Origin: an uncultured Prevotellaceae bacterium
Lineage (GTDB): Bacteria > Bacteroidota > Bacteroidia > Bacteroidales > Bacteroidaceae
Assembly (NCBI GenBank): GCA_902780635.1
Contig: CACZGH010000004.1
Span: 124,001 to 188,000, forward strand
Direction: 5' to 3'
DNA: 64,000 bases
Made by a program: the position numbers and the translations under genes. How positions within the stretch are numbered: the stretch's first letter is position 1; each line of letters begins with the position of its first letter. Of this stretch, positions 8,379 to 31,053 are shown in pieces. The notes under the pieces were generated by a model. The model had not been told where the DNA came from. It saw only the letters and a program-made list of their open reading frames with translations, and did no database searches.

Positions 8379-8495
8379 CAAAATTACAGCGAATACTGAT
8401 AAGGCGAATCTTATTTCCTGTTTTTTGTCAAAGCACATGCGACAGAGGGTTGTTTTTTGCGACACATCAGAGAAACAGCTGCTGAATCTGTCGCA
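8379..8495 (-). promoter_or_regulatory. Motif-1 promoter, copy A
   Basis: On the minus strand: TGCGACA (8495-8489), TGTCGCA (8464-8458), TGTCGCA (8444-8438), then the -7 box TAATTTTG (8386-8379). Start-to-start distances are 31, 20 and 58 bp, total 109. The leader of about 40 bases ends at the ATG at 8341. The pattern and total distance match copies B, C and D. Confidence 0.7.
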
Positions 8496-8512
8496 TACAT
8501 AGGGAATGTAGG

Positions 8513-8599
8513 GAGGCCAGCGTGGTCTATCCGCAGTATTTCGAGAGACAAGAATGGGGCTTCATCAATAACTGGTATTTGGGGTTGGCGCGCAAGTAG
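8513..8599 (+). pseudogene. C-terminal remnant of a duplicate of the 9171-9383 gene
   Basis: Reading from 8513 gives EASVVYPQYFERQEWGF and INNWYLGLARK then a stop. This matches the C-terminus of the downstream gene (EASEAYPQYLERQERDI, INNWYFGVARK). DNA identity is high through the stop codon and the following TGAGGTC. The first two-thirds of the gene and its plus-strand promoter are missing; in their place, just upstream, lies the motif-1 element of the divergent gene. No start codon is available, so it is a dead copy. Confidence 0.8.
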
Positions 8600-8920
8600 T
8601 GAGGTCTGGCTCTATGATTAATCAGTCCACAATGATCAGTATAGCAATCCAAATAGCCAGAGGGGTATCTTGTTGCCGTGACCTATATCAATGTTGTCGC
8701 TAAGAAGGAAGAAGGTAGATGGAAGAAGGAAGAGGGAAGGGGATTTTGGTTCATGGTTAAGGGTTGACAATTCTCTCCTATCCTCCTCAACTCCTTAGCC
8801 TAAATCAATCTCCATAGAGTGGAGTTTTCGTTCCTTTCGCTATTTCGGGCCTTTTCGGAATCTAAAAATTCTAAGGAGTCAAGGAGTTAAGGAGTTTTTT
8901 CCTTCAAACGTAACTATCAA
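8600..8920. other. Non-coding stretch after the dead copy
   Basis: No gene seen. It holds a decayed counterpart of the terminator region found after 9383: the inverted segments CTCCTCAACTCCTTAG (near 8785) and CTAAGGAGTCAAGGAG (near 8862) flank a GGAATCTAAAAA stretch that also occurs at about 9490-9500. This supports tandem duplication of a gene-plus-terminator unit. Confidence 0.5.
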
Positions 8921-8977
8921 CTCTCAACTCTCAATTCTCAACTCTCAATTCTCAATTCTCAACTCTCAACTCTCATC
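8921..8977 (+). repeat. AACTCTCA/ATTCTCA short tandem repeat
   Basis: About seven degenerate 7-8-bp units (CAACTCT, CAATTCT) immediately upstream of motif-1 copy B. Confidence 0.8.
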
Positions 8978-8983
8978 CGTCAA

Positions 8984-9100
8984 AGCGACAGCTTTCAAAG
9001 CCTTTTCCCATATTTGTCGCAAATGTGGGAATCTGTCGCGTGCTTTCCCATAAAAAAACGATATAATTTCTTGCCCGCTTTCAGAATCGCCCTACCTTTG
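8984..9100 (+). promoter_or_regulatory. Motif-1 promoter, copy B
   Basis: AGCGACA (8984-8990), TGTCGCA (9015-9021), TGTCGCG (9034-9040), -7 box TACCTTTG (9093-9100). Distances are 31, 19 and 59, total 109, identical to copy C. No convincing -33 TTTG is present, as expected for an activator-dependent promoter. Confidence 0.75.
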
Positions 9101-9115
9101 CATCAGAACAACAAA

Positions 9116-9131
9116 GACAGGCTCTCCTGTC
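9116..9131 (+). promoter_or_regulatory. 5'-UTR hairpin shared with 31070-31085
   Basis: GACAGG-CTCT-CCTGTC, a 6-bp stem just after the transcription start. The same stem with loop TTCA occurs in the leader of the gene at 31134, inside a conserved AACAACAAAGACAGG context. It may stabilise the mRNA 5' end. Confidence 0.5.
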
Positions 9132-9170
9132 ATGACAACAAAAATAATAATAACAAAAAAATATACGATT

Positions 9171-9383
9171 ATGAAAGCAATGGAATTAACCCAGATGACA
9201 TTTGCCCAGTACAATGTAACGTCAATGTCAACCAAAGTGAACAACTTCAAAACGGCCATAAAGAAATTCATCAAGGCCACGTACAGATTCATCAAAGAGG
9301 CCAGCGAGGCCTATCCACAATATCTCGAGAGACAGGAACGAGACATCATCAATAACTGGTATTTTGGGGTGGCGCGCAAATAG
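9171..9383 (+). CDS. Small basic protein of unknown function (motif-1 regulon)
   Basis: A 70-residue protein, MKAMELTQMTFAQYNVTS and onward, with no signal peptide. The middle (TKVNNFKTAIKKFIKATYRF) is a strongly basic amphipathic helix and the C-terminus (PQYLERQERDIINNWYFGVARK) is aromatic. The start at 9171 is preferred over an in-frame ATG at 9132 because the sister genes at 18949 and 31134 also start in an ATTATGAAA context at the same point of an AT-rich leader. It has its own motif-1 promoter and terminator. A truncated paralogue lies 570 bases upstream. It might bind membranes or nucleic acid, but nothing in the sequence decides this. Confidence 0.65.
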   Translation: MKAMELTQMTFAQYNVTSMSTKVNNFKTAIKKFIKATYRFIKEASEAYPQYLERQERDIINNWYFGVARK

Positions 9384-9412
9384 TGAGGTCGGCACCTGAC
9401 AAAACTCCTTTC

Positions 9413-9460
9413 CTCCCAGTCTCCTTAGATTCTTTTGGCCTAAGAAGACTGGGAGTTTTT
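9413..9460 (+). terminator. Rho-independent terminator
   Basis: CTCCCAGTCT...AGACTGGGAG stem with an extended CTTAG/CTAAG pairing, followed by five T. Confidence 0.85.
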
Positions 9461-9618
9461 CGTACATTTTCGTCTTTTCGGACCTTTACGGAATCTAAAA
9501 ATACTTCCTTGATTCACTTCATCGAATGCTTACGTTGAAAAATATTAAAATGACATTTCTATGTCAGATTTCCAGCTTTTCTTTGTCGTGAATTTAGAAA
9601 CCATCTCACACAAAGAAA

Positions 9619-10323
9619 ATGGAACAAGGATATATCATTTTGCAATGCACAGCATCTGACACAAGTCTTGGCACAGCATTTGGCACAGTTTCTGACACAA
9701 ACTCAGGCATAGGCATTCTTTATATAGAAAAGTTATGCAATAATCAGAATATCAGTCATTTATTTCCTAACGAAAACCATCTTGAATCTACGATTTCTGC
9801 TCCCCATCGGCACAAAAACGGCACACCATCCGACACGCCCTCCGGCACAAAGAAGAATAAAGATATAAATATATTCATCAACGACAACAACGCGCACGCG
9901 CATGAAAGCATTCAACAAGAAATCAACGAGATGAATGCCAATCAATCGTGGCAAGAGGCCATCTGTATGCGTCATCCATTTCACCCAACTATTCATCAAA
10001 CATCCATCATTATGCATCCCATCAGTGTCAACCAAGTTCTGCGGATTTCATCCGCGACGCCCAGCAGTGGGCTATCAGTCAGTCACAGCGTCTTATCAGA
10101 AAGACAGAGAGCCGACATGGCCACCTTCAAGAAGCTTTTCCCATCTGAGGAGCATGTCCTGGCTTTCTTCGCACCGGCGGGCATCCAAGCCCTGTATAGC
10201 TACTTGCGCCGTGAGTATGTCAGTCAGGGGCGTGATCCACGTGAGTCGTCCCTCTATCAATTGGGGAAAATCACTGATGAGCAACTGCAAATCGTCCTCA
10301 GTGAGGAAGAGTCTGCTTTTTGA
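9619..10323 (+). CDS. Putative DUF7833-like accessory protein, possibly frameshifted
   Basis: An open frame of 234 codons. The first half is low-complexity with Ser/Thr-Asp/Gly repeats (TASDTSLGTAFGTVSDTNSG and GTPSDTPSGTKKNKD) followed by NANQSWQEAICMRH, which resembles the linker and start of DUF7833-type proteins of Bacteroidetes mobile elements. The C-terminus (MATFKKLFPSEEHVLAFFAP and beyond) looks like normal protein. The middle (about 9965-10110) is Ser/Pro/His-rich in this frame but reads as natural protein in the next frame (SADFIRDAQQWAISQSQRL). Two compensating frameshifts are therefore possible. Function unknown; low confidence in the central sequence. Confidence 0.45.
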   Translation: MEQGYIILQCTASDTSLGTAFGTVSDTNSGIGILYIEKLCNNQNISHLFPNENHLESTISAPHRHKNGTPSDTPSGTKKNKDINIFINDNNAHAHESIQQEINEMNANQSWQEAICMRHPFHPTIHQTSIIMHPISVNQVLRISSATPSSGLSVSHSVLSERQRADMATFKKLFPSEEHVLAFFAPAGIQALYSYLRREYVSQGRDPRESSLYQLGKITDEQLQIVLSEEESAF

Positions 10324-10433
10324 GCAACAGGCTCTTATCTCTTGTTGGATTTCATCTGCGGCTTCAACCCTGCCACCATTCATTTCTTCGACCTCTTTGT
10401 CGTACCCAAAGGCCAAGAGATACTTTTGGATAA

Positions 10434-10460
10434 TGACGCACCGTTTTGAATGGTGCGTCA
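10434..10460 (+). terminator. Hairpin, probable weak terminator
   Basis: TGACGCACC - 9-base loop - GGTGCGTCA, a perfect 9-bp stem followed by a broken T-rich run. It lies between the gene ending at 10323 and the convergent restriction gene ending at 10546. Confidence 0.5.
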
Positions 10461-10545
10461 ATTGGTTTTGGATTGGGAGAAGGGTGTGAAGTGCGGAAAA
10501 CTTTCAAATTAGTTATTTGATGCCTGCCTCAATGATTTCTCGAAA

Positions 10546-11664
10546 TCATTTCGAGAATAAAAACGCAGGTTTATCTGTAATCCATTCTCTTAGAGGCACA
10601 TTATTTTCGTCTGCAAATTTACAGCAAATATTTAACCATGCCTCATACATATCCTCACTTTGAAGAAGAATCGGATTAAAGTCTTTAATCATCATATACA
10701 TTTCTGACGAAGGATGTCTTAACACCGCCTTAATTTCATCAGAATAATCCACGATTATATTGAATACCTGTGCAACAGGAGTTTCCAGGCGCTTTCCGTT
10801 TACATGTGTAATCTTACCTCCTGCAGAATAGATGTCTCGAATGTTAGGATTAACCACCTGATTATAAGCACACAACCAAAGTGTTGTATTATTATACTTT
10901 GTCATTATTCGAGCAGGATTCAGTGCTTCAGGAAATAGAATCATGCATTTAGTTTGCAATTCACGTTTTTCCCATATATCGAGCGAGTTCCATAATTTAA
11001 TATTGAAGGAATGTCCTGTTTCCACATTGTCTGAAGTAATCCACCATGGCATTTCTTGTCTATTTTGCTGACGAGCAAGTTCTCTATAATAATGTCTTAC
11101 CTTTGATATGCTATCAGGCGAAGTACGGAAATCATCATATGTTGTCCCCATCTTTGAAAATATGGTTTTATTCTTATCTAATTCCATATTTATCAGATAT
11201 CTAGGAGAGTGGGTGACAGCAATATCGTACAAAACGTCTTGATATGGTCTGCACTTAAATTGTGGCACATTTCCACCAAGTTTTCCAAATAGCATATATA
11301 TATCATCAACATTTTCAACACGGGTGGTTTCTACGATACTACTACCTGTGGACGTCCAGTGATCTTCTTTTGTTGATTTTACTTCAACGCCATAATATTT
11401 CTCAGCTATTATATCGGGGAATCTTTGTCCTGAAATTAACTTAACCTCATTTGCGTCAAAAGGTGAATCAGCACATGCCAGCTTAATCTTTTCAACTGCA
11501 CAAGGTTCTAATGTACTCGAATTTAATCGTTTGTACTCGTTAGGATTTGCTAAAGCTTCTTGATTTAGAATCTTTTCTGTTCTATCCATCAAATCAACAA
11601 AGGCTTGGTGAGCCAATGTAATATCTCTTTTCCTGATAGCGATGATATTATTACTTGTATCCAT
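10546..11664 (-). CDS. Type II restriction endonuclease
   Basis: A 372-residue cytosolic protein that begins two bases after the stop of the cytosine methyltransferase, the usual arrangement for a type II restriction pair. A PD-(D/E)XK nuclease core is visible: RFPDIIAEKYYGVEVKSTKE at residues 81-100, with Asp84, Glu94 and Lys96 as candidate catalytic residues. The rest is not recognised, which is normal for restriction enzymes. It should cut unmodified DNA at the site protected by the partner methylase; the specificity cannot be read from sequence. The cassette is noticeably more AT-rich than its surroundings, a sign of horizontal transfer. Confidence 0.85.
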   Translation of the reverse strand: MDTSNNIIAIRKRDITLAHQAFVDLMDRTEKILNQEALANPNEYKRLNSSTLEPCAVEKIKLACADSPFDANEVKLISGQRFPDIIAEKYYGVEVKSTKEDHWTSTGSSIVETTRVENVDDIYMLFGKLGGNVPQFKCRPYQDVLYDIAVTHSPRYLINMELDKNKTIFSKMGTTYDDFRTSPDSISKVRHYYRELARQQNRQEMPWWITSDNVETGHSFNIKLWNSLDIWEKRELQTKCMILFPEALNPARIMTKYNNTTLWLCAYNQVVNPNIRDIYSAGGKITHVNGKRLETPVAQVFNIIVDYSDEIKAVLRHPSSEMYMMIKDFNPILLQSEDMYEAWLNICCKFADENNVPLREWITDKPAFLFSK

Positions 11665-11666
11665 AT

Positions 11667-13019
11667 TTAATCAAAATATAAATGCCAAACTTCTTGAACT
11701 CTTCTTGCTATGTTGTAAGCTAACATAGGTGGTACTGCATTTCCAATTACTTTGTATGCTCCGGAAGGACTAACTGCATATCTTTTAGAAGCAAGTTTAT
11801 GGAACACAAAAGGATAATCAGGTGGAAATGTTTGGATCAGAGCGCATTCACGAGGTGTGAGCCTACGTTCAGCAAGTCCGTTGTTTAATTCATCCATGTT
11901 TTTACCACCATGTTCTGCTGATAATCTACGAAACTCTATATTCCCATGATGCTCAGATCGTATTGTAGGTCCTAGTCCATCCATATTTATCTCTGTTTGC
12001 CCTTGACTTCCATTACTAAGATACTGAGCACCAGAGAAGAATTTTTGAGCTAAATCTTTCGAATGTTCAGGCTCAGGTAATCCTCCTAATACGTCTCTAC
12101 AGGTAACAGGCGAAGGAAGTTCGTCGTTATCAACATTGAATTTGTGTGTTGGCAATGGATAAGGATAGTATTCTTGTGGGATATTCTCTTGCTCTAACGC
12201 TTCAATTGCCTGAGGAGATAATGCTGATCGCTTTATTCCTATGAAAAACACACGTTCACGTGTCTCTGGTACTCCATAATTTCCTGCATGCAGAACTTGT
12301 GGCTCAAGAACTATATAATCATTTCCGTTGGCAGTCGAGAAATCTCGTTGTATAATATCCTTAACATCACCAAGACTAACCAACCCCTTGACATTCTCTG
12401 CAATGAACATTTTAGGTTGGACAATATCGATGACTTGCTTCATCCACATATACAGTTTTCCTCTCGTTTCCTCTGATGGTTCATCATTAAGCCTTTTCTC
12501 TCCGTTATGTGATACCGCAGAATAAAAGCCTTTTCTTTTTCCTGCAACGCTGAAGTCCTGACAAGGGAATCCACCAGTTACAACATCAATATTGTGAGGA
12601 AATACCTCATGGCCTTCTCTTTGGAGTTTGACTAAATTGACAATACTTTCCAAATGGTAAATTTCAGGATTTACATGATAACGAGACATATAGTTCAACC
12701 ATGTTAATCGAGCTTCTTCCAAAATATCACAGGCAAATACTGTCCTAAAAAGATTACGATTGAGCATTACCCAGTTGTCATTAACTTGATAATCTATCCA
12801 ATCAGGATTTGTCACGGAATTGTGGTGACACATAAATCCACCTTCAAGACCTAAATCCATACCTCCACATCCAGAAAACAAGGATAACACTCTTAATGTA
12901 CCATCCTCATGTCGTTCATCGTCACCATTGTTGAAAAACAAATCAAATTGCGGTTCTGAGATTAAATCTGATTGTTGTTCTATTTCTATCTCGGTATATT
13001 TAATTGCTTTCTTTGCCAT
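11667..13019 (-). CDS. DNA (cytosine-5-)-methyltransferase
   Basis: A 450-residue C5 DNA methylase with the ordered motifs of the family: motif I VLSLFSGCGGMDLGLEGGF (about 45-62), motif IV GGFPCQDFSVAGKRKG with the catalytic Cys near residue 150, motif VI AENVKGL near 205, motif VIII-like NYGVPETRERVFFIGI, motif IX RRLTPRECALIQTFP and motif X YKVIGNAVPPMLAYNIARR. The region between VIII and IX is the target-recognition domain. It protects the host against the endonuclease encoded immediately downstream. The start ATG lies 6 bases after the stop of the HTH gene, so the order is controller, methylase, endonuclease in one transcript. Confidence 0.95.
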   Translation of the reverse strand: MAKKAIKYTEIEIEQQSDLISEPQFDLFFNNGDDERHEDGTLRVLSLFSGCGGMDLGLEGGFMCHHNSVTNPDWIDYQVNDNWVMLNRNLFRTVFACDILEEARLTWLNYMSRYHVNPEIYHLESIVNLVKLQREGHEVFPHNIDVVTGGFPCQDFSVAGKRKGFYSAVSHNGEKRLNDEPSEETRGKLYMWMKQVIDIVQPKMFIAENVKGLVSLGDVKDIIQRDFSTANGNDYIVLEPQVLHAGNYGVPETRERVFFIGIKRSALSPQAIEALEQENIPQEYYPYPLPTHKFNVDNDELPSPVTCRDVLGGLPEPEHSKDLAQKFFSGAQYLSNGSQGQTEINMDGLGPTIRSEHHGNIEFRRLSAEHGGKNMDELNNGLAERRLTPRECALIQTFPPDYPFVFHKLASKRYAVSPSGAYKVIGNAVPPMLAYNIARRVQEVWHLYFD

Positions 13020-13025
13020 GTGTGG

Positions 13026-13228
13026 TTATTGTTTGGTTGAAACGATTAAATCGCGAACATCAACGTCAAGGAGATTTGCAATCTTATTAAGGGTATTCAA
13101 ATCTGGTTGAACACTATTGCTGCACCACTTACTTATTGTACATGCAGACTTTCCAACTTGCTCAGCCAACCACTTACTTTTTTTTCTTGCTCGGCAAGAA
13201 CTGCTTTTATGCGATTCAATTTTGCCAT
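13026..13228 (-). pseudogene. Frameshifted XRE-family HTH controller of the RM cassette
   Basis: Read across a run of eight A (plus-strand T at 13178-13185), the sequence encodes MAKLNRIKAVLAEQEKK and then, after a one-base shift, SKWLAEQVGKSACTISKWCS, followed by PDLNTLNKIANLLDVDVRDL and IVSTKQ-stop. With one extra A the product would be a complete 67-residue XRE helix-turn-helix protein, typical of regulators beside Bacteroidetes cytosine methylases. As written, translation stops after about 31 residues. The length (203 bases) is one short of 68 codons. It may be a true mutation, slippage-based phase variation, or a sequencing error in the homopolymer. Confidence 0.8.
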
Positions 13229-13255
13229 GATAATCTATAATAATAAAGTTTGGTG

Positions 13256-13263
13256 CAAAGATA
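13256..13263 (-). promoter_or_regulatory. -7 box of the restriction-modification operon
   Basis: TATCTTTG on the minus strand, 28 bases before the HTH start codon. It matches TAnnTTTG and would drive the HTH-methylase-endonuclease transcript. Confidence 0.6.
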
Positions 13264-13320
13264 ATAAATGTCCATGAAAAAGATGGCTCTTACCAGTGAC
13301 AAATAATTTTAAGAAGTCTA

Positions 13321-13354
13321 GGAGGAAAGGAGTCTTTTTCATTTCTTTTCCTCC
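13321..13354 (-). terminator. Hairpin after the C10 protease gene
   Basis: GGAGGAAA (13321-13328) pairs with TTTCCTCC (13347-13354), 8 bp with an 18-base loop. It lies 26 bases past the protease stop. Weak. Confidence 0.45.
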
Positions 13355-13379
13355 CCTCCCATTACACCTATTCAGAAAA

Positions 13380-16300
13380 TCAATATCTTCCTAAGATGAT
13401 GTCAACGGTACTAAGGACATCGGAGATATCAATCTGTCCATCTTTATTGATGTCACTTTTGGCACGGATGAAGCCTTCTGGATTGCGCCCTAAAATATAA
13501 TCGACTATCAGTAATACATCAGAAATATCCACAATTTGATCATTGTTGACATCACCCAACGGCAGCAAAAAAGCACTTGATAAGTAGCCGGGGTTGTCGG
13601 GTCCGCCATCGATATGGGCATAATCCAAACCTGTATGTTCCTCACTAAATGTTGTTCCCTTTTCGCCTATAAGTTCAAAACAATAATAAAACATATCATC
13701 ACCATTTTCCACTTTTTCAGTATTCCAATCATCACCCACATAAATGGATTCAAGGGACCAACAACTGCTAAACATACCCGACATGTTGTTCACATTTGAT
13801 GTATTGAATGCAGAAAGATCAAGGTTTTTAATATACCAACAACCATTGAACATACCACTCATGTTATTCACGTTTGATGTGTTGAATGCAGAAAGATCAA
13901 GATTTTTCAATGAGAAACAATCCGTAAACATATAACTCATGTTAGTTACATTTGATGTATTGAAACTACTTAAATCTAAAGCATTAAGTTGATGGCACTC
14001 TCTAAAAAGGAAATCCATCTCTGATACTTTTTCAGTATTAAAGTTGTGGAGATTTAAGTTTTCCAATGAATTACATCCTAAGAACATATAATTCATATTT
14101 GTCAAATTCGATGTGTTGAAATTGCTCAAGTCAAGACTCTTTAATGAAATACAACGATTGAACATTCCGTTCATATTTGTTACGTTGTCTGTAATGAAAC
14201 TACCAAGATCAAGAGCAGTCAATGATTCACAGCTGTTAAACATATTGCTCATGTCTGTTACCTTTGAAGTATTAAAACCACTCAAATCAAGAATCTTTAA
14301 TGACCCGCAACCAAAAAATGTACCATTCATACTTTCCACATTCGATGTGTCAAAACTACTAAGGTCAAGGTGTTCCAACGACCCACAGCCACTAAATTGG
14401 TACCCCATTGTATTCACTTTTTTTGTATTAAAACTACTAAGATCGAGTTCCTTTAAAGATCCACACCCATTGAACATTGCATACATATTTGAGACATTTT
14501 CTGTGTTGAAATTGCTAAGATTCAGAGTTTTCAACGAGCTACAGCCATCGAACATCCCACTCATGTTTGTGACATTCGAAGTATTAAAACTACTCAAATC
14601 AAGTTTCTGCAACGAACTACAGCATGCGAACATCGCAAACATATCAGTTACCTTATCGGTGTAAAATCCACTAAGGTCAAGATTTTCCAATAAGCTACAT
14701 TCCCTAAACATATACTCCATGGAACCAGACACATTTGATGTATTAAAACTGCTTACGTCAAGTTTTTTTAAAGACCAACACATATCAAACATGTTATACA
14801 TGGAATTTACTTTCTCTGTATTAAAACTGCTTAAATCGAGACTATCTATAGAAGAACAACCTTGAAACATAGCCCACATACTTGTCACATTTTCGGTATT
14901 GAAATGGGAAAGATCAAGTTTCTTCAGCGAGGAGCAGTATCTAAATGTATAAGTCATTTCTTCTACTTTTTCAGTATTAAAACTACTTAAGTCTAATTCT
15001 GTCAACGAAGAGCAACCCTCGAACATGGAAAACATTGTTAGATTGTTCTTTGTATTAAAATTACTTAGATCGAGCCTTTCCAATGAGGAACATCCATCAA
15101 ACATATATTGCATCAATGCGGTGTTTTCTGTATTGAAACTGTTTATGTCCAGTTCTTTTAAAGAAGAACAATTTTCAAACATACCATCCATCATAATTAC
15201 GTGATTTGTGTTAAAACCACTTAGATTAAGAGCCTTTAAGGATATACAATCTTGAAACATCCAACCCATATCATGTACATGATCTGTACAAAAACCATTA
15301 AAGTCAATTGTTTCCAATGAAGAACACCCATAAAACATTCCCATCATCTCTGTTACATGAGAGGTATTCAAATTCTTCAGTCCTGTTATTGACTTAAGAT
15401 TTTCACATTGAGAAAAGAAACCATTTAATGACTCCAATTCATAATCAGCAAAGGACGAATCGATGATACAAGCTACCATTTCTGAATCCTGAGGACAATG
15501 AAGTAATTCTATTTCAGACGTAAAATTAGGATCTGTAGCCATCAAATCAGGAAAGACTTTCCCTGAACGATTCTTTTTTTCCGTATCGTAGTACAATGTC
15601 ATTGTTCCATTTTCAAGCACCCCATAGGTTTCAGGAAGAGCAGTGCTTGATGGCTTTATACCAATGATGGCACATTGGTCGTTGTTGTAATCAGGTAATA
15701 CCGATAAGAGATAGTTGCCGTTCATGTATCCTCCCCAGCCCCAATTGAGATGGAAGTAGTCATTTCCGTCATAGCCATCAACCACAAAGACATGCCCCAT
15801 CGTTTCATTACTACCTCCATATAAGACTGGACGATGGTTAGATAACTCATCATAAATGAGCTGATTCCATGTATTCTGTTCATAATCAGAATTATATACC
15901 ATAGAAATGTTTATGTCATACCCAAAATAGCGAGGAAGTGATTTTAGCACATTGTCAGCACGAGCTCCACTACCAGAAGCGTTATATTGCATTTTTACAG
16001 ATTCTCCACATAACACCATCAGTTTGGCCACTGCTTCGATTTGTTCTTGGGTAGGCTCTCCTTGATAATTGGGCAACATATTATCCCAGTCGATAGTTGT
16101 GATGGGATAATCAGAAGCTACAGACCCTTGTTCGTCATAAATATAGCCATGGATGATATTTCTTGTCTGTTCCGGCCACTTGTGATAATACATGATTTGT
16201 GCCATCGCTGTAGCAACGCAACCTGTCGGAGACTCATCAGGGCACATAGTATTATAAGGCCACCACTGATCCCATTCACAATCAAGCATTGGTGAAATAG

Positions 16301-16721
16301 AACTGCCCCGTTCCTTACGCTTTGATGCAATCTCAGTTTGAGGATTCTTTCGTAAATAATCAACCTGAGCGGCATATCCTTCCAACCACTCCCGAAGATT
16401 GTCTGGCAGTTGATCTGCAACAAAACTCCCTTCGAAAGAGTAGCCCAAAATGGCAGGCATTCGTTCGTCACCACTAACAATTACAAAACCGCCGTTAGAC
16501 TCATCATTGAAAATGTAAAACTCATCTCGGTTGTTGACAAGCTTCAACTGAGGATTCTTTCTCGGAACCTTCATTTTCATCGAGGATGGACTGTCGGGTT
16601 GACTGAGAAAAGACACGGCTTTTTGCATAGCCGCCTCTATTGATACTTGTTGAGCAGACATGGGCAGCACAGACAATAAAAATAATATGAAAAGGCTGTT
16701 GGAAGAGAACGGTTTTTGCAT
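13380..16721 (-). CDS. C10 (streptopain-type) cysteine protease with DUF285 repeats and dockerin
   Basis: A 1113-residue exported protein in four parts. Residues 1-24 are a signal peptide. About 25-140 resemble the C10 propeptide. About 145-350 form a peptidase C10 catalytic domain with Cys168 in SPTGCVATAMAQIMYYHKWP and His310 in TMGHVFVVDGYDG, followed by the family's HLNWGWGG motif. About 440-1030 hold 22 units of roughly 24-26 residues of the BspA-type DUF285 pattern (SSFNTSNVTNMSGMFDGCSS, LKTLDL). About 1053-1113 form a dockerin type I domain with two Asp-rich loops (GDVNNDQIVDISD and SDINKDGQIDISD). C10 proteases degrade host proteins and the repeats suggest adhesion, so a surface protease-adhesin is likely. 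No T9SS tail is seen. It is monocistronic. Confidence 0.9.
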   Translation of the reverse strand: MQKPFSSNSLFILFLLSVLPMSAQQVSIEAAMQKAVSFLSQPDSPSSMKMKVPRKNPQLKLVNNRDEFYIFNDESNGGFVIVSGDERMPAILGYSFEGSFVADQLPDNLREWLEGYAAQVDYLRKNPQTEIASKRKERGSSISPMLDCEWDQWWPYNTMCPDESPTGCVATAMAQIMYYHKWPEQTRNIIHGYIYDEQGSVASDYPITTIDWDNMLPNYQGEPTQEQIEAVAKLMVLCGESVKMQYNASGSGARADNVLKSLPRYFGYDINISMVYNSDYEQNTWNQLIYDELSNHRPVLYGGSNETMGHVFVVDGYDGNDYFHLNWGWGGYMNGNYLLSVLPDYNNDQCAIIGIKPSSTALPETYGVLENGTMTLYYDTEKKNRSGKVFPDLMATDPNFTSEIELLHCPQDSEMVACIIDSSFADYELESLNGFFSQCENLKSITGLKNLNTSHVTEMMGMFYGCSSLETIDFNGFCTDHVHDMGWMFQDCISLKALNLSGFNTNHVIMMDGMFENCSSLKELDINSFNTENTALMQYMFDGCSSLERLDLSNFNTKNNLTMFSMFEGCSSLTELDLSSFNTEKVEEMTYTFRYCSSLKKLDLSHFNTENVTSMWAMFQGCSSIDSLDLSSFNTEKVNSMYNMFDMCWSLKKLDVSSFNTSNVSGSMEYMFRECSLLENLDLSGFYTDKVTDMFAMFACCSSLQKLDLSSFNTSNVTNMSGMFDGCSSLKTLNLSNFNTENVSNMYAMFNGCGSLKELDLSSFNTKKVNTMGYQFSGCGSLEHLDLSSFDTSNVESMNGTFFGCGSLKILDLSGFNTSKVTDMSNMFNSCESLTALDLGSFITDNVTNMNGMFNRCISLKSLDLSNFNTSNLTNMNYMFLGCNSLENLNLHNFNTEKVSEMDFLFRECHQLNALDLSSFNTSNVTNMSYMFTDCFSLKNLDLSAFNTSNVNNMSGMFNGCWYIKNLDLSAFNTSNVNNMSGMFSSCWSLESIYVGDDWNTEKVENGDDMFYYCFELIGEKGTTFSEEHTGLDYAHIDGGPDNPGYLSSAFLLPLGDVNNDQIVDISDVLLIVDYILGRNPEGFIRAKSDINKDGQIDISDVLSTVDIILGRY
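13742..15400 (-). repeat. DUF285 coding repeat array
   Basis: Coding repeats of about 72-78 bp, about 22 units, within the C10 protease gene. The units nearest the 3' end (about 13750-13910) are nearly identical to each other, suggesting recent unit duplication. Confidence 0.8.
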
Positions 16722-16761
16722 GATTGTTAGGTATTTAAAATATGATGGTGTTCTTACTCTC

Positions 16762-16946
16762 TTATCTTTTATAATGCGTTTTCACATGCTGCTCCTGGAT
16801 TTTCGGAGAGCCGTATTCTTTCATCCCGAACTGGATGGACTTGATTAGGAACGCCATGTTAAGGGCGAGTTGCCGCATCGTCTGCATGCCCTCCTCGTCC
16901 TGGGTAACCTCGCCAGGGAGAGCTCCGTGTGCTATGCTCCAGTAGC
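16762..16946 (-). pseudogene. C-terminal fragment of a flavodoxin-family FMN reductase gene
   Basis: The minus strand reads RYWSIAHGALPGEVTQDEEG, then MQTMRQLALNMAFLIKSIQF and GMKEYGSPKIQEQHVKTHYK-R-stop. This resembles the C-terminus of NADPH-dependent FMN reductase/flavodoxin-family proteins (the GEV.QDEEGMQTMR pattern). An in-frame stop lies just upstream (near 16949) and no start is available, so only the tail survives. It abuts a uvrB fragment. Confidence 0.7.
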
Positions 16947-16956
16947 GGTTTTAGGG

Positions 16957-17059
16957 TTAAGGGCCTTCCTTCTTCCTTTGCTCCAAAAGGTCTTGCAACC
17001 GGATAATCTCGTCGCGGTACTGGGCGGCTTGCAGGAAGTCGAGGCTCTTGGCGGCCTCT
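16957..17059 (-). pseudogene. Fragment of uvrB 3' end
   Basis: The minus strand encodes EAAKSLDFLQAAQYRDEIIR followed by LQDLLEQRKKEGP-stop, the UVR tail of UvrB. It differs from the intact uvrB (31738-31827) at only about 4 of 84 aligned bases in the well-conserved part (16976-17059). Similarity stops abruptly at 17059, five bases before the end of the ATPase gene at 17064. Confidence 0.9.
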
Positions 17060-17063
17060 AATG

Positions 17064-18638: not shown

Positions 18639-18784
18639 GGTAGCGTACTTTGTGATTTCTATGCAAAATTAGTAAAAAAACACTATACTTGGTATATAAT
18701 AATATCGATTTGTTGATAGTGGTGCCTTTTTTTCGTCAACTAAATAATTAACTTGTCTACACATCGACTCGTCTACTAAACCAA

Positions 18785-18901
18785 TGCGACACTTTTCTAA
18801 GGCCTTTGTCGGGTATGTCGCATATAGAGGTTTGTGTCGCTACGTTTGAATTCAAAATAGGGCGAAAAACTTTTTTCGGGCCCAAAACCGGCTTAACTTT
18901 G
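18785..18901 (+). promoter_or_regulatory. Motif-1 promoter, copy C
   Basis: TGCGACA (18785-18791), TGTCGCA (18816-18822), TGTCGCT (18835-18841), -7 box TAACTTTG (18894-18901). Distances are 31, 19 and 59, total 109. An extra half-match TGTCGGG at 18807 is not positioned as in the other copies. Apart from this element, 18639-18948 holds only the ATPase promoter and the AT-rich leader. Confidence 0.75.
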
Positions 18902-18948
18902 CATCAGAAAATTAAAACAAAAAGAAATAACAACAAAAAAATACAATT

Positions 18949-19377
18949 ATGAAAAAGGCTAAAATGATGGTGTTCGCACTGATAGGTATGATGACAAAGT
19001 CAATGAGTAATAATGCAAGTGATAAAATGGTGTTCGCAAAGGATTTGCCCGCAGAAGTAAAGGCATTCGTACAGCAAAACTTCCCCCGTCAGTCTGTGGC
19101 TTATGCAAAGATGAAGTCCACTAGTGATACTGTATACGAGGTGAGCCTGAACGACGGCACAGAGGTGGTCTTCAACCAGGATGGCGCCTGGAGCATGGTG
19201 GACTGCAAGTCAGAGGCTGTACCTGCCTCCCTGATGCCCGCCTCAATGCCCTCCTTCCTCGGATCCCTGTTCTCCAGTAATAAGGTGGTCAAGCTCAACA
19301 GAACCATCAATGGTTATGTCGCAGCGCTCTCCAATGGCTACTCGATGAAGTTAGATCGGATGGGAATGGCAGCATAA
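18949..19377 (+). CDS. PepSY-like (DUF2874) protein (motif-1 regulon)
   Basis: A 142-residue protein with a hydrophobic N-terminus (MKKAKMMVFALIGMMTKSMS) that could be a short signal sequence, though no clear AXA cleavage site follows. One PepSY-like/DUF2874 unit is visible at about 30-85: DLPAEVKAFVQQNFPRQSVA, YEVSLNDGTEVVFNQDGAWS. A second, weaker strand pattern follows (VVKLNRTINGYVAALSNGYS). DUF2874 proteins are small periplasmic proteins of Bacteroidetes, related in fold to PepSY/BLIP domains, with no assigned activity. It is a single-gene unit with a motif-1 promoter and its own terminator. The gene at 31134 encodes a shorter relative. Confidence 0.8.
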   Translation: MKKAKMMVFALIGMMTKSMSNNASDKMVFAKDLPAEVKAFVQQNFPRQSVAYAKMKSTSDTVYEVSLNDGTEVVFNQDGAWSMVDCKSEAVPASLMPASMPSFLGSLFSSNKVVKLNRTINGYVAALSNGYSMKLDRMGMAA

Positions 19378-19378
19378 G

Positions 19379-19438
19379 TTGAAGGAGTTCAGGAGTATAG
19401 GAGTTCAGAAGTTCAGGAGTTCAGGAGTTGAGGAGTTA
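19379..19438 (+). repeat. AGGAGTTCA 9-bp tandem repeat
   Basis: About six degenerate 9-bp units (AGGAGTTCA and variants) directly after the PepSY-like gene stop. The same family is seen near 8861, 33782 and 44102. Confidence 0.8.
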
Positions 19439-19487
19439 AGCCAAAGGTTATTTTCAAGAAAGTGAAGTAAACGTCACTTGTATACCA

Positions 19488-19540
19488 AGAGCCGTATCGG
19501 AGCATGATGATTCATGCCACGGTACGGCTCTTTCTATTGT
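19488..19540 (+). terminator. Rho-independent terminator with nested palindrome
   Basis: AGAGCCGTA (19488-19496) pairs with TACGGCTCT (19523-19531). The loop contains a second hairpin (GCATGA-TGAT-TCATGC). A T-rich run follows. Confidence 0.75.
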
Positions 19541-19588
19541 AAACGCCTATGGTTGTCGGTAAACAGGGCGTAGAGTACGAATACTGTA

Positions 19589-19816: not shown

Positions 19817-19831
19817 TGTTGTATGTTTTTT

Positions 19832-25393: not shown

Positions 25394-28300
25394 AGCTATA
25401 CTTGAAGATTTCGTTTCCAGTGCTGATAATGTAGACTCCTCTGGTAGAAAGTGGAACATTGAGTGTGGTGCCGGCTGTCTTCGGCTCATTATAAACAAGA
25501 TAGCCGTTGATGCTGAACACGCGGACGTTGCTGCCTTCCTGAATGCCGGCCAGGCGGATGCCACCATCGTAGCGTTCCACCAGTGTATGGTGCGTGGGCA
25601 CGGCGCGTCCATAACGCAGGGCATCGATATAGGTGGGATCGTCGGAGGGGAAGAGGGTCACGGCTGAGGCGTTGCGCCCAGCAGTGGCATTCTCAATATA
25701 GGTGTGGTTGTTGCCGGTTTGCTTGAGTGTGATGATGGTGGGGAAGATGTAGCCATCGATGATCTCAGTGATGCCACTGACATAGACGGTGGCGTAGGCT
25801 TTGCGCATATTGCCCACCTGGTGGAAGTCGGCATCGGTGACCAGCGTCTGTGCCTGATGAGTGATGGTCTCTGTGACACCAAGGCGCGGATGAATGCCAA
25901 GAAGCAGTCCGGTGTTGGGCAGCAGACCGTATGTGGAGCGGTCGATCAGTTCGATGAGGAACGTGTTGGCACCATTCTCGGGATCGATGTGGCGGTTGAC
26001 GATGCGGCAGTCGATGTCGTTGAAGGCCACCAGTTCACGCTCAAACGCCTTTACACCACGACGAAGGTTGCGATGCTTGCCGACGCGGGTGGTCTGCGAG
26101 GGGCTCCTGAATACATTGTCGTAGAAAACGTGTACCTCGCTCTCCATATATCCGTCGAATTCGTCGGTCAGAGGGTAGTTGACAGTAAATGTCTTTTTCG
26201 TCAGCGGAGCCACGAAAGCATCTTCGATGGGGAGGGTTGTGCCGTTGATGACCACCTCGGCGCCGTTGATGGAAGAGGTGCCGGTATTGCGAATGGTGAC
26301 GTTGACGGGAAGTGTGGAACTGGCCAGGAGGGCTTCGCGTGAGTAGGTGACGTCGGCCTCAAAGCCATTGGTAAATACCTTCTCGTTCTTCATGATAACG
26401 GCACCACCGCCATTGGGGTCGGCCAGGGAGTAGACAACCGCCACACGGTCGTCGTTGAGGAAGCCGTCGAAGTCGATGAGTTGCAGCGAGTCGGTGGCGG
26501 CAGCAACGGTGAGGGGATAGGTGACGGCGGGCGTTTCGGACAAATGGATGCGCGAGGCATTGAGCACGGTGCCCAGACTGTCGGTGCTGTAACTGCCCTC
26601 GGCTGGGTCGCGGATCACATTGTTGGCCTCGGTCCAGAGTACGGCGAAATCCTGGGCATTGTCGTTGCTGCGGTCGCAGATAATCTTTACGCGGTCGGGG
26701 TTGCTATGGTCTACTCCGATGTCGCATCCGGCATGGCCGTCGCCGTGTCCGTCCATGGAGAGGGTCTTCACAAACACCTCACGCACACTGTCACTGCGCT
26801 CGTAGGCCATGGCTATGACGGCATGCTTACCCACGCGGTTCATGAAGAAACTATAGGGCGAGATTTGCTCGTCGACGTAAGTCACCTTGTTGCTCCTCAG
26901 GGGCTTCGAGGCATAGTACATGTGGACGCTGTCGGTGAGGGCATTGTAGACGCTGGCTCCCACGAGCACGGTGTCGCCACGCATGATGAGGTCGTAATGG
27001 TTAACGGCCTGCTGGGGGTTGATGTCAAATAGGTGGGTGGGCTCGCTCCATCCCGTGGCGGGCTCGTAGGTGCGGAGCAGCAATTCGCCCTGGAGGGCGT
27101 AACTGTACAAGGAGTCTTTGGGGAGGGTGTCGTTGATAAGCGTCATCTCACCATGCTCATAGACCAGGGCTGCCTTTCCGTCTTGCTGCACGGTCACCAC
27201 GGGGTTCTGGTCCAAGTAGCCGTCGTCGGGGGTGACAACGGTTTCCATCCATTCGTCGGCCCCTCGGCGCATGGCGGCCTTGATTTGGATGTGGCGGTTC
27301 TGCTCAAGGGTGCGCTGCAGCGCATTGTCATCGTTGATTTCCTCGCTGACTACGGTTGAGCATACTTGCTGATAGGCCACCACCTCTGGTTCGCCGCACT
27401 TGGAGCGCATTTGTTGGGCGGCAGCCAGACCGGGCGATGAAATATTGACACTATGTCCTTCTTCCTCCAGACAGCAGATGGCCACATGGTCGTCGTTGTA
27501 GTCGGAGGGGGAGCCCATGGCATTGTAGACCACGTGATGGTCGTCGATGAAATGGGGATTGGCATTGATAGCCACGTCGGTCACCAGAGGATAGCCCATG
27601 TCGGAAGCCTTGGGAGCCCTCACCGGGCGGTAGGCATTGGCAACGGTTGACTGGGTTGCATCTTTGGGAATCCAATAGGGGAAGTCCTTGTGGTAGGGAT
27701 TGCGGCCATCGTTGGGGATGAAGAATTGCTTGCCCCATTTCCAACCCATCTGATAGGACATGTGGCAGAAGAAACTGCGCAGGTAAATATGGGCTTCTAT
27801 CAGGGCAAGCAAGGTGAAGCGGGTTCCCAACCCATACTCCTTAAGCATGAATGGCTTGGCAACGCCTGCCTCGGCCGACAACTTGGCACCTGCACGCATA
27901 TTGATGCCGCAGTCGACTATAGGGTTGCGCTTGGCCTTGATGCCAAACCATCCGCCTGCCCTTGCCGAGGCTCCCAGACCGGCGAAGAAGCCCATGTTTT
28001 CCTTGCTCATGGCTTTTTTGTTGAACGACATGAGTGCTGCGTCGAGACGAACATTGAGATCGAAGACGGCACCAAAGTCGAGATCGAGGGGCACCAGTTT
28101 GGTGACTTTATTCACCGTGCCGAGTTTGCCGTTGGTTGGCGGTGTCCAGAACCAGCCGAAACCACCCTCAAGATAGCCTGAGAATTCGCTGATCTGGAAG
28201 TCGTTGAATTTCGGCAGTTTGGCCTGTATGGCAAACCTCGCGCCGCCGCCAAAGTACCAGCCAATGTGGTTGGCGTTGACCTGGAAGATGCGGTTGGCCT

Positions 28301-30329
28301 CCTTGGCAGCCCAGTCGTCAAGTTTCTCACTGCCACCTGCCAGGGTCATGGCTGCGCTCTCAAGAGGCTGGTTTTCTGATTCATCGAATTTGTATGTCGT
28401 CTTGTTCCAGTTGGAGTAGTTCTTGGCGGCGTCGCGGGCGGTTTTCTTCTTGCCTTGGTCTTGATCGGGGTCCACACCATTGTAGACGAGTTGGATATAC
28501 CATTGGAACAACTGCTGGGAGATGTCGATGATGCTGCCGGTCTTGATGGTGAATTTATTACTAATCTTGAGATTGAATTCGGGTGCGGTGCCCCAGCCGA
28601 AACCGCCGTCTTCGAACGCCCGGGATGCTTCGTCGGCATCATTGGGGGTATTGACGCTCTCCTGGGCATGTTCTTCCACCTCTTTCTCTTGCTCCTCCTG
28701 ATTGAAATACACATTGCAGAGACGAGGGAAGCCCTCATAGGTAGACGTCGGGGTTTGGAGCGTGAGCGCCACTTCGGTGTTGTAGGGCAGGTCATCGGTC
28801 AGGTCGTAGCGGGTGAAGAAATAGTCGCGGGTGAAGTGGGTGAACACCTTGCTGCTCACAATCTCCGAGCAAGAAGGTACAGCGCTTCCCTTAGGGCTGG
28901 AAAAGGCCACCTCCATCTGGGCAAACTTCTCGGTGGGATTGTTGTTGAACAGTTTGGGATACTCGGTTCCGCCATTGTCCATGAACGAGATGGTCTCAAC
29001 AGGCAAGCGCCCGGAGAGATTGAAATCTTGCTCCTCGCAGACGGCATAGTCGATGGAATCGCGTGTGACGGCCACATGCATGTCATCCATGTAGCGCAAG
29101 TATTGGTCGCTGATAGCAATGCCGCTGGCATCGGGCTGTCCTGCCTTCACCGTTAGTTTCGCCGTACAGAGTTCCTCATCGAGTATGCGTGAGTCGGCTG
29201 CGGCTGCACCCTTGTAGCGGTAGAGCATAGGCAGGCAGCCAGGCACGAGAATCTCGATGTAAGCATGATGAGCATAGGTGTGAATCAGGTGTGATTGGCT
29301 TGTGGCATCGTAACCCAGGTAGGACAGCGAGGCATCATCGACGTAGTGCCCTTTGCTGTCGACACGGTGGACGTTGATGTTGGCGTTGGTGATGCGTGTA
29401 CCGTCCTCGGTAAACAACTGCAGGAACAGTGTGTCGTACTTCTCAAACAGGCCGGTGCCCAACCAGTTGAAGTTCATCAACTCGCGGTTCTCATGCTTGG
29501 TGAGATTGAACATGGTCTCCAACCGGGGTAGCTCCATCTTGCTGTCGATGTCAATGCCCGAATGCATGAATTCCATGTTCATGCGCATCTTGTCAAAGCC
29601 TTCGTTTTCGTTGCCAGTGACGAAGTAGATGTCGGTCAAGTTGTGACCTTTGGGCACGTAAAAACTCTGGAAGTAGGTGGAGCGCAGTTGCAGTGTGTTG
29701 CGCTCTACCTGCGGCTTGCCTTCGGCATCGGTATAGGTGGTGACATACTCCATGCCGTAGGTGTTGCCTGTCGACTGTCGCTTCTGGTCGAGCTGGAAAA
29801 TGTAGACGTTTTCATTGTCCCAGTCATAAACCCAGTAACGGAATACGAAGGGCTTGTCCTTGCTGCCCTTTTTCTTGACGGTGACAGTGATGTTGCTCTC
29901 TGAAGAGAAGAGCGGCATGTTGGCAAAGAAATAGCTGCTGGTATTCAGCGTCAGCTTGTAGGGGTTGCCCTCGTCGGTCTTGACACCATAGTCTACCTCC
30001 ACCTCATAGATACCGGTTTTTCCACTACCGTCGTTGATACGGAAGGCGAGCAGCGTCTCGTCGCGCATACGCCAGAACAGCTGCTGGTCCTCCAGTCCTT
30101 TCATGCGGGTATCCTTCAGCATGTCTGTGACGGCCTTCACATCAGCGGCGTTGCCGTCGATGGCACCGTTTTTGATTTCCTTCCATGTCAGTTGTTGGGC
30201 TATCTTACGGGTGCTACTGAAATCAGTCACGTTGGTGACATCCTTCGCATAATATAGTTTGAAATCTTGAGCTGTCACATGTATGGCTGTCAGCCATAAA
30301 AATGACATTGCGTAAATGAATCTTCTCAT
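25383..30329 (-). CDS. Giant exported protein with type IX secretion C-terminal domain
   Basis: A 1648-residue protein with a signal peptide (MRRFIYAMSFLWLTAIHVTAQ). Most of it is beta-rich and not recognised. A coiled acidic stretch lies near 555-575 (EEQEKEVEEHAQES). A CARDB-like beta-sandwich is suggested near 1380-1470 (LPVNVTIRNTGTSSINGAEV). The end (GSNVRVFSINGYLVYNEPK, GVYIISTGNEIFKYSYEK) is a typical T9SS type A sorting domain, so the protein should be secreted across the outer membrane and anchored or released at the surface. It is the first gene of an operon with a second giant exported protein and a small acidic protein. No -7 box could be placed with confidence upstream. Confidence 0.8.
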   Translation of the reverse strand: MRRFIYAMSFLWLTAIHVTAQDFKLYYAKDVTNVTDFSSTRKIAQQLTWKEIKNGAIDGNAADVKAVTDMLKDTRMKGLEDQQLFWRMRDETLLAFRINDGSGKTGIYEVEVDYGVKTDEGNPYKLTLNTSSYFFANMPLFSSESNITVTVKKKGSKDKPFVFRYWVYDWDNENVYIFQLDQKRQSTGNTYGMEYVTTYTDAEGKPQVERNTLQLRSTYFQSFYVPKGHNLTDIYFVTGNENEGFDKMRMNMEFMHSGIDIDSKMELPRLETMFNLTKHENRELMNFNWLGTGLFEKYDTLFLQLFTEDGTRITNANINVHRVDSKGHYVDDASLSYLGYDATSQSHLIHTYAHHAYIEILVPGCLPMLYRYKGAAAADSRILDEELCTAKLTVKAGQPDASGIAISDQYLRYMDDMHVAVTRDSIDYAVCEEQDFNLSGRLPVETISFMDNGGTEYPKLFNNNPTEKFAQMEVAFSSPKGSAVPSCSEIVSSKVFTHFTRDYFFTRYDLTDDLPYNTEVALTLQTPTSTYEGFPRLCNVYFNQEEQEKEVEEHAQESVNTPNDADEASRAFEDGGFGWGTAPEFNLKISNKFTIKTGSIIDISQQLFQWYIQLVYNGVDPDQDQGKKKTARDAAKNYSNWNKTTYKFDESENQPLESAAMTLAGGSEKLDDWAAKEANRIFQVNANHIGWYFGGGARFAIQAKLPKFNDFQISEFSGYLEGGFGWFWTPPTNGKLGTVNKVTKLVPLDLDFGAVFDLNVRLDAALMSFNKKAMSKENMGFFAGLGASARAGGWFGIKAKRNPIVDCGINMRAGAKLSAEAGVAKPFMLKEYGLGTRFTLLALIEAHIYLRSFFCHMSYQMGWKWGKQFFIPNDGRNPYHKDFPYWIPKDATQSTVANAYRPVRAPKASDMGYPLVTDVAINANPHFIDDHHVVYNAMGSPSDYNDDHVAICCLEEEGHSVNISSPGLAAAQQMRSKCGEPEVVAYQQVCSTVVSEEINDDNALQRTLEQNRHIQIKAAMRRGADEWMETVVTPDDGYLDQNPVVTVQQDGKAALVYEHGEMTLINDTLPKDSLYSYALQGELLLRTYEPATGWSEPTHLFDINPQQAVNHYDLIMRGDTVLVGASVYNALTDSVHMYYASKPLRSNKVTYVDEQISPYSFFMNRVGKHAVIAMAYERSDSVREVFVKTLSMDGHGDGHAGCDIGVDHSNPDRVKIICDRSNDNAQDFAVLWTEANNVIRDPAEGSYSTDSLGTVLNASRIHLSETPAVTYPLTVAAATDSLQLIDFDGFLNDDRVAVVYSLADPNGGGAVIMKNEKVFTNGFEADVTYSREALLASSTLPVNVTIRNTGTSSINGAEVVINGTTLPIEDAFVAPLTKKTFTVNYPLTDEFDGYMESEVHVFYDNVFRSPSQTTRVGKHRNLRRGVKAFERELVAFNDIDCRIVNRHIDPENGANTFLIELIDRSTYGLLPNTGLLLGIHPRLGVTETITHQAQTLVTDADFHQVGNMRKAYATVYVSGITEIIDGYIFPTIITLKQTGNNHTYIENATAGRNASAVTLFPSDDPTYIDALRYGRAVPTHHTLVERYDGGIRLAGIQEGSNVRVFSINGYLVYNEPKTAGTTLNVPLSTRGVYIISTGNEIFKYSYEK

Positions 30330-30880
30330 ATATAGACTGAAATAGGTTCTTAGTTCTTCATTTGGGGATATACGCCGTAAAAGTAATAATTATTTCTGAA
30401 AATTACAAATAATCAAACAAAAATCAATTTTATACTATCCCAGACTTTCAATATATTGGGGAATCATGCTTGCCTATTTTGAAAGATAGTATCGCAAACG
30501 ATAACAAATGATCGCAAATAATCGCAAACATCGCTTAATGATAATGTAAATGATAATGTAAATGATAATGTTAATGTAAATGATAATGATATTAAAAAAA
30601 AGAAATATCCCTAACGGGATAGAAAGAAAAAAGTGTTTTTCTTTCCCCCTCTCTCCCGAAAAAAATACTTTAGTCATCTGCTTGTAGATGTCAATGCGGC
30701 AACTTGCCAACAAAACGTAGGAGGTCGGGCCTCCGAGCCCGACAAATAAATAGATTGCGGAAATATTGCAGAAAAGACGGAAATGATGCGGAAACTTTAT
30801 CGTCTATGATGACAATACCTAAACATGCAGGGGTAATCTCTAAGTTAGAGGTTGCTCTCCCTTGGGAAACGAGGGAGCCG
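30330..30880. other. Long AT-rich intergenic region
   Basis: No gene seen. It contains the presumed promoter of the giant-protein operon, a 12-bp-period ATGATAATGTAA repeat (30537-30592), the segment ATCCCTAACGGGAT (a near palindrome near 30607), and a hairpin GTCGGGC-CTCCGA-GCCCGAC at 30725-30744. The hairpin resembles a REP-type or terminator-like element. Confidence 0.55.
30537..30592 (+). repeat. ATGATAATGTAA tandem repeat
   Basis: Four to five degenerate 12-bp units in non-coding DNA. Confidence 0.8.
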
Positions 30881-30881
30881 G

Positions 30882-30929
30882 AGGGAGTGCCAGGGGGAGT
30901 GTGTTAGGGAGTGCCAGGGGGAGTGTGTG
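30882..30929 (+). repeat. 24-bp tandem duplication
   Basis: Two nearly identical 24-bp units (AGGGAGTGCCAGGGGGAGTG plus TGTT/TGTG) at 30882-30905 and 30906-30929, ending 8 bases before motif-1 copy D. Confidence 0.9.
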
Positions 30930-30936
30930 ATTGTAT

Positions 30937-31053
30937 TGCGACAAATATCAACGGCCTCGGGTGATATGTCGCAAATTCGGGCGTGTGTCTCATCCACTTC
31001 TCCAAAAAAACGCAAAAAAAAAATCCTCCTACACAAAATCGTCCCTATCTTTG
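30937..31053 (+). promoter_or_regulatory. Motif-1 promoter, copy D
   Basis: TGCGACA (30937-30943), TGTCGCA (30967-30973), TGTCTCA (30986-30992, one mismatch), -7 box TATCTTTG (31046-31053). Distances are 30, 19 and 60, total 109. Confidence 0.7.

Follow-up and report, generated by a model that had tools for sequence, protein, structure and literature searches.

Several described systems resemble parts of the promoter and gene module reported here. LytTR response regulators are associated with direct repeats about 21 bp apart, and sigma-E-type envelope-stress regulons include the small RNAs MicA and RybB. Partner-switching modules are understood here as defined in the abstract of PMC11619594. 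For Bacteroides thetaiotaomicron, excerpts of PMC11697453 and PMC7366714 describe the small RNAs FopS and GibS, for both of which pairing with start regions is proposed; FopS is a multicopy family of 14 that responds to bile salts and has canonical sigma-ABfr promoters, and the GibS promoter, PM2, has elements at -10 and -30. Judged by titles and the first lines of abstracts, the open-access literature yielded no description of the promoter or the module reported below, an absence that carries little weight, and no open-access paper was found that brings SpoIIE, STAS, AraC and partner switching together.

Results

A three-box element in the window

The window, i.e., the whole analysed stretch of 64,000 nucleotides from an uncultured Prevotellaceae bacterium, contains four copies of an element consisting of a TGCGACA box, two TGTCGCA boxes in direct repeat and the -7 box TAnnTTTG, which begin at 8495 (minus strand) and at 8984, 18785 and 30937 (plus strand). 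The initial annotation had proposed that the distances within this element are fixed, and every distance was found exactly as given there: start to start they are 31/20/58 at 8495, 31/19/59 at 8984 and at 18785, and 30/19/60 at 30937, each totalling 109, yet one-base deviations are present in four of the twelve boxes, which belong to three sites.

All boxes are perfect in promoter A (8379..8495, minus strand; boxes 8489-8495, 8458-8464 and 8438-8444, -7 box 8379-8386; model match 8376-8495, E 5.9e-14), which has the gene of a 184-aa exported protein on its 3' side (7787..8341, minus strand) that belongs to no Pfam family at E 0.1. Promoter B (8984..9100, plus strand; boxes 8984-8990, 9015-9021 and 9034-9040, -7 box 9093-9100; model match 8985-9103, E 8.6e-18) has one-base variants as its first (AGCGACA) and third (TGTCGCG) boxes. 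It is followed by the gene of a small protein (9171..9383, plus strand; 70 aa from the ATG at 9171, the frame being open from an ATG at 9132), relatives of which also follow sites in other genomes, including G119 of another genus. The third box is TGTCGCT in promoter C (18785..18901, plus strand; boxes 18785-18791, 18816-18822 and 18835-18841, -7 box 18894-18901; model match E 2.2e-20) and TGTCTCA in promoter D (30937..31053, plus strand; boxes 30937-30943, 30967-30973 and 30986-30992, -7 box 31046-31053; model match E 9.2e-12). Two PepSY-like proteins of 142 aa (18949..19377, plus strand; PF11396, E 3.4e-20) and 120 aa (31134..31496, plus strand; PF11396, E 3.4e-7) are encoded downstream of promoters C and D, respectively. 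The four sites scored between 58 and 108 with a position matrix, and nothing scored above 5 in eight shuffles of the window in 2-base blocks (512 kb, both strands). Neither the matrix nor the sequence model R1, described below, found a fifth site in the window.

The architecture is conserved across aligned sites

A profile of 44 sites was compiled from 47 candidates, three of which were dropped; an exact TAnnTTTG 48-63 bases after the third box was required, so that the invariance of the -7 box among these sites is given by construction. The gaps between the boxes were 24/12/52 in 31 of the 44 sites. The start-to-start distances added up to 109 in 35 sites, 110 in six, 108 in two and 107 in one, which supports the proposal that the spacing itself is under selection, and the direct repeat had a period of 19 in 42 sites and of 20 in the other two. 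In contrast, the proposal that the intervening sequence is unconserved failed for the family as a whole: a T stands immediately 5' of the second box in 35 of 40 sites, position 13 of the first spacer is a T in 33 of 40, and A-tracts are conserved as well. A weak -33 element was also recognized, as the bases T-T-G (in 32, 39 and 25 of the 44 sites) end 20 bases 5' of TAnnTTTG. The absence of a -33 box, claimed earlier for all four promoters, was thus not upheld for the family, in which the weak T-T-G is usual; among the four window sites, the TTG is seen by eye only at 8984. Gap-free alignment of 30 sites with identical spacing (31 before one near-duplicate was removed) provided the sequence-only model R1. 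The rigid architecture of three boxes and a -7 box is kept in different genomes and genera and before different gene families.

Distribution of the element and controls

The inverted pair TGCGACA-N21-27-TGTCGCA occurs at nine places in the window's genome (4.07 Mb in 57 contigs, 99.5% complete) and the direct pair alone at seven, with no match to the respective control, which for the inverted pair was the reversed pattern. Among 60 genomes of the genus, the strict three-box pattern matched 36 times in 15 genomes and its reversed control not at all. Searching the same 60 genomes with R1, under filters made stricter in view of their number, gave a bimodal outcome: sites at E <1e-6 were present in 19 genomes, and the best match in the remaining 41 had an E of 1.7e-5. 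The window's genome has 20 strong R1 sites, with E at most 5.7e-11. Within the family, where 301 genomes from 30 genera were surveyed and R1 was run on 18, the strict pattern was found in eight genomes belonging to four genera (control 0).

In named genome contigs, the strict pattern was present in at least 113 stretches. Of the 80 matches listed, 72 have Prevotella or Prevotellaceae in their titles and eight have Bacteroidales, Bacteroidaceae or Muribaculaceae; a ruminant stomach compartment is named in 21 of these 80 titles, and many others bear RUG names, which we take to denote rumen genomes.

Genes downstream of the sites

Scanning 265 stretches with the position matrix identified 239 unique sites, 154 of them with exactly the model spacing. 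As downstream frames were chosen automatically and clustered by single linkage, the following counts are rough. PepSY-like genes follow 43 sites (family assigned by Pfam on the window genes), genes for exported lipoproteins or clostripains 32 (clostripain assigned on L299), Hcp/TssD genes 18 (Pfam on the related L307 protein), genes like that at 9171 seven, porin-like genes seven (by eye), phosphatase genes four, and TssC, SusC-like (by eye) and D-Ala-D-Ala-dipeptidase-like genes (by eye) two each; a further 66 targets are singletons, and 21 sites have no downstream frame. A MATE transporter gene, with an NRPS gene after it, stands downstream of one site in the window's genome (L058). The view that all targets are small proteins therefore does not apply generally, since type VI secretion (T6SS) components, clostripains and the MATE/NRPS genes are among them, whereas the PepSY-like nature of the two window genes was confirmed by PF11396.

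Several local arrangements were observed among these loci. Five of the 20 sites of the window's genome lie within about 29 kb (G000:C3:6234-35279; L092, L093, L058), near the NRPS and MATE genes. Cationic peptides of 43-48 residues, several with aromatic ends, follow the sites L029:9054, L047:9241, L159:4611, L171:2610 and L212:6435, and those of L159 and L212 stand directly 3' of an AraC gene. Other sites (L229:3295, L211:7353, L141:2584, L243:3478) lie 5' of short peptides in which a double-glycine-like leader or GIRVK repeats were noticed by eye. Six sites occur on a single contig (G031:C87; L095-L097), most of them before tandem paralogous lipoprotein genes, and a phosphatase/AraC module stands among these. 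Finally, AraC-type genes of the same family are found inside type VI secretion loci (L307, L150, L207, L216), with a site between the AraC-type gene and TssC or before TssD.

As the element is found before recurring gene families in many genomes and across four genera, the earlier suggestion of an undescribed activator-type regulon is well supported as a reading of the recurrent element, and so is the selection on its spacing. The sites were neither randomly placed nor unconserved, the two outcomes that the initial annotation had named as speaking against it, but 22 sites, read as small-RNA promoters, do not stand before a start codon.

Apparent small RNAs

Filtering for a strong hairpin ahead of any likely frame retained 29 sites, some of them plainly belonging to protein genes. 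From these, 23 were kept by eye and six left out; four were added by eye (one of the window's genome and three of G019), giving 27, and setting five aside left 22 apparent small RNAs with three-box promoters, which occur in several genomes. A hairpin such as GGGCTTGCAGTGATGCAAGCCC stands at the end of many of them. The window's genome has one such RNA (C17:19434; L056 from 7934), and a SAM-I/IV riboswitch unrelated to the element lies elsewhere in that locus (L056:15854-15956, minus strand). Units in L099, L100, L101, L102, L228, L054, L234, L235 and L056 share a three-box promoter, a frameless stretch, TTTCATA, a C-poor tract and a terminator-like hairpin, and from their sequence they appear to form a multicopy small-RNA family.

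TTTCATA is present in 15 of the 22 apparent RNAs, and TTTCAT in 16 of the 27 picks compared with a mean of 2.3 and a maximum of 7 in 300 shuffles; these counts are not independent, because the picks followed sight of the motif and near-copies occur in G019 and G024, and the four added RNAs, seen before TTTCAT was counted, lean the result upward. TATGAAA, the complement of TTTCATA, ranks first among the heptamers across starts (66 of 917; 387 occurrences in 3.4 Mb of strand). When duplex energies with 250 start regions were calculated, the median was more stable than for shuffled regions in 14 of the 22 RNAs, by at most 2.3 kcal/mol; the best-5% values were mixed. As the energies approach those of shuffled regions, RNA targets are unproven. 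A search of 12 loci against Rfam found no family at the sites, and two tRNAs and the SAM riboswitch elsewhere in the loci.

A candidate regulator encoded in a recurrent module

Unbiased clustering of the genes neighbouring the sites revealed a recurrent three-gene module that encodes a fusion of a Cache sensor with SpoIIE and HATPase domains, a STAS protein and, as its third product, an AraC-domain protein of about 186 aa. In L303 the gene set of partner switching is complete (SpoIIE, E 1.3e-47; HATPase_c_2, E 3.2e-21; STAS, E 1.5e-18), and the same gene order is repeated in L297, L299 and L302. The third gene encodes an AraC-type protein and no sigma factor, so that the sigma-factor target of partner switching is lacking. 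PF12833 and PF00165 were above cut-off on the proteins of L212, L014, L353 and L356, and AraC-type DNA-binding domains ranked top as the nearest solved structures in the fold and PDB search. The structural model of the AraC-type protein (monomer; mean pLDDT 89.6, pTM 0.60) comprises a single helix at residues 3-87 followed by the AraC domain; the N-terminal helix probably forms a coiled coil.

Sites lie 5' of the phosphatase gene in L096, L120, L167, L220 and L231 and 3' of the AraC gene in L134, L150, L159, L207, L212 and L231. In G043 (L299), a site heads an apparent operon of clostripain, phosphatase, STAS and AraC genes, and in G119 a site stands between an upstream AraC gene and a downstream 9171-like gene, all within 953 bases. 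In total, 13 of the 239 sites are at most 1 kb from a module gene, which is not significant against random positions in the same loci (mean 11.3; 13 or more in 295 of 1000 draws); this control is considered weak, since the sites had determined how the loci were cut. Seven sites lie within 1 kb of a canonical AraC gene, compared with about 0.3 expected by our own arithmetic (25 genes per 48 Mb, 14 genomes).

Co-occurrence of the AraC gene and the element

Using a profile (A3) of 11 AraC-type proteins, themselves picked for nearness to sites, and a cut-off of E <1e-48 fixed after the gap in the list had been seen, a canonical AraC gene was identified in 16 of the 60 genus genomes, i.e., in 14 of the 19 motif-bearing and two of the 41 others (Fisher p 6e-8, phylogeny ignored). 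The two carriers without strong sites have a partial gene (G013) and an in-frame stop (G047). Among 33 good-quality genomes, seven had both gene and motif, three the motif only, none the gene only and 23 neither (p 3e-5, phylogeny ignored). In the 301 family genomes, searched with E up to 1e-40, the AraC gene occurred in six, the strict motif in eight and both in five (p 1.7e-8, phylogeny ignored); the sixth carrier, G188, lacks the strict motif and has four sites by R1. When ten genomes of the same genera with neither gene nor motif were compared, nine had no site at E 1e-5 (G064, G092, G069, G097, G137, G202, G243, G103, G142), and the tenth, G215, had three R1 sites.

Genes for SpoIIE accompany the motif in all 19 genomes that bear it, but 17 of the 41 others of the genus have them too, and SpoIIE alone was set aside as a predictor of the motif. 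Sites without a canonical AraC gene were found in G040, G049, G055, G124, G159 and G215, some of which may be explained by incompleteness. This does not apply to the window's genome, in which the profile search found no canonical AraC gene despite 20 sites and near completeness. A phosphatase-STAS pair stands there without an AraC gene (L317), and the SpoIIE gene at L318, which is shorter than related ones, has neither STAS nor AraC gene adjoining; no complete module was found. G007 (94% complete, three strong sites) has neither a canonical AraC gene nor a paralogue of it at E 1e-12.

Discussion

The reading that we favour, and regard as fairly probable, is that the element marks the promoters of a regulon that some Prevotella-type bacteria possess, with TGTCGCA boxes read by an AraC-type activator under partner-switching control. 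The activator of about 186 aa would bind the boxes, join them and activate RNA polymerase from about 70 to 120 bases 5' of the start. With a transcription start about 13 bases past the first base of the -7 box, the three boxes would be centred near -69, -88 and -119. Tied together by a long coiled coil, activator molecules at these positions may span the direct pair and the inverted box and make contact with the polymerase, and such bridging would explain why the spacing is preserved while the spacers vary at most of their bases. Because its gene often follows those of the Cache/SpoIIE/HATPase fusion and the STAS protein, the activity of the activator is probably set by partner switching, which would release or restrain it; the AraC-type protein would then stand at the output of partner switching, in the usual place of a sigma factor. 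The regulon output would comprise envelope and secreted proteins, T6SS components, short peptides and apparent small RNAs, in which UUUCAUA is the complement of the most frequent start-codon context. For the window's genome, the activator would be one of two divergent paralogues or a gene not seen so far.

Other explanations have to be weighed against this reading. That the element merely represents chance matches or a dispersed repeat might be thought as it was first spotted by eye and near-copies occur within single genomes (G019, G024), but the reversed controls were empty in 60 genus and 301 family genomes, shuffles of the window yielded nothing comparable, and the distances are kept while spacer sequences differ and unrelated gene families lie downstream; this explanation is extremely improbable and is largely refuted. 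The promoter and regulon may also be real with the boxes bound by another regulator, the phosphatase/STAS/AraC module then being a target and perhaps an input. The sites 5' of the phosphatase gene would fit a mere target equally well, the window's genome and G007 have sites and no canonical AraC gene, and SpoIIE accompanies all 19 motif-bearing genomes while the AraC gene accompanies 14. We nevertheless regard another regulator as unlikely: the recognized DNA-binding proteins among the recurrent neighbours are AraC-type (12 loci) and ECF-sigma-like (eight loci, by sequence inspection), the ECF-sigma-like gene lies kilobases away where inspected (L032, L092), and in three genera every AraC carrier has sites. 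Two other candidates were set aside. LytTR proteins, for which the window's genome has five genes, were dropped as first-choice binders on account of the period of 19 and the inverted box. A hybrid two-component gene divergent from the L015 site was dismissed on its layout alone, which many glycan-locus regulators share.

For the window's genome itself, it is possible, if doubtful, that a membrane-anchored AraC paralogue reads the boxes, a one-component sensor having replaced the module. In that genome, the canonical profile matches two divergent paralogues best, L014:2737-3546 (C12:86260; E 2.4e-26) and L295:7529-8182 (C18:81657; E 1.2e-24); both proteins have an N-terminal hydrophobic segment, a coiled-coil-like stretch and an AraC domain, and the motif-bearing G040 encodes a similar protein (L356). 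On the other hand, relatives with similar scores occur in the motif-free G032 and G039, and neither gene adjoins a site, the nearest being 4.5 kb away in L014 and none being present in L295. Concerning the 22 apparent RNAs, it is rather unlikely that they are leaders or remnants of lost genes instead of regulators. Several are near-copies in a single genome, their pairing energies show no clear excess and no Rfam family was found in the 12 loci, which would fit such remnants; against this, RNAs of this kind are found in several genomes, with a terminator-like hairpin and no reading frame, and 15 carry TTTCATA.

Partner switching onto an AraC-type activator would extend this signalling mode beyond sigma factors, and the candidate regulator and signalling route named here can be tested directly. 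The promoter code can be recognized from sequence alone and thereby provides lists of targets for many Prevotella-type genomes in one step, linking the PepSY-like proteins, whose role is unknown, with type VI secretion, with peptides and with the apparent small RNAs. The full picture, i.e., partner switching with a coiled-coil AraC-type output that acts through a rigid three-box promoter on a programme of envelope functions and antagonism across Prevotella-type genera (PepSY-like proteins, T6SS, peptides and start-codon-masking RNAs), is put forward tentatively, as somewhat less probable than its converse.

With respect to known systems, the predicted module resembles the Rsb systems (RsbU/RsbV/RsbW with sigma-B, and Rsb of Chlamydia) in that a PP2C-type SpoIIE phosphatase, a HATPase (HATPase_c_2) and a STAS protein are encoded in one operon; it differs in that the phosphatase and kinase domains are fused and that the DNA-binding member is AraC-type instead of a sigma factor. 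The candidate activator shares the DNA-binding domain of AraC/XylS activators (SoxS, MarA, AdpA, AraC, the C-terminal domain of the YesN type) by Pfam, PDB sequence and fold. Unlike these, it has a lone long N-terminal helix and no sugar-binding or receiver domain, and it is predicted to bind three boxes of mixed orientation at fixed distances. Spaced direct repeats 5' of a weak promoter are also known from LytTR regulators, but the period here is 19, a third box is inverted, and the 21-bp repeat is not found. Like FopS, the apparent RNAs are multicopy, and pairing with start regions is proposed for them as it is for FopS and GibS; their three-box promoter differs from the sigma-ABfr promoters of FopS and from PM2 of GibS. 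The sigma-E regulons, finally, also mix exported envelope proteins with small RNAs in their output, but do so with another activator, another promoter and in other organisms.
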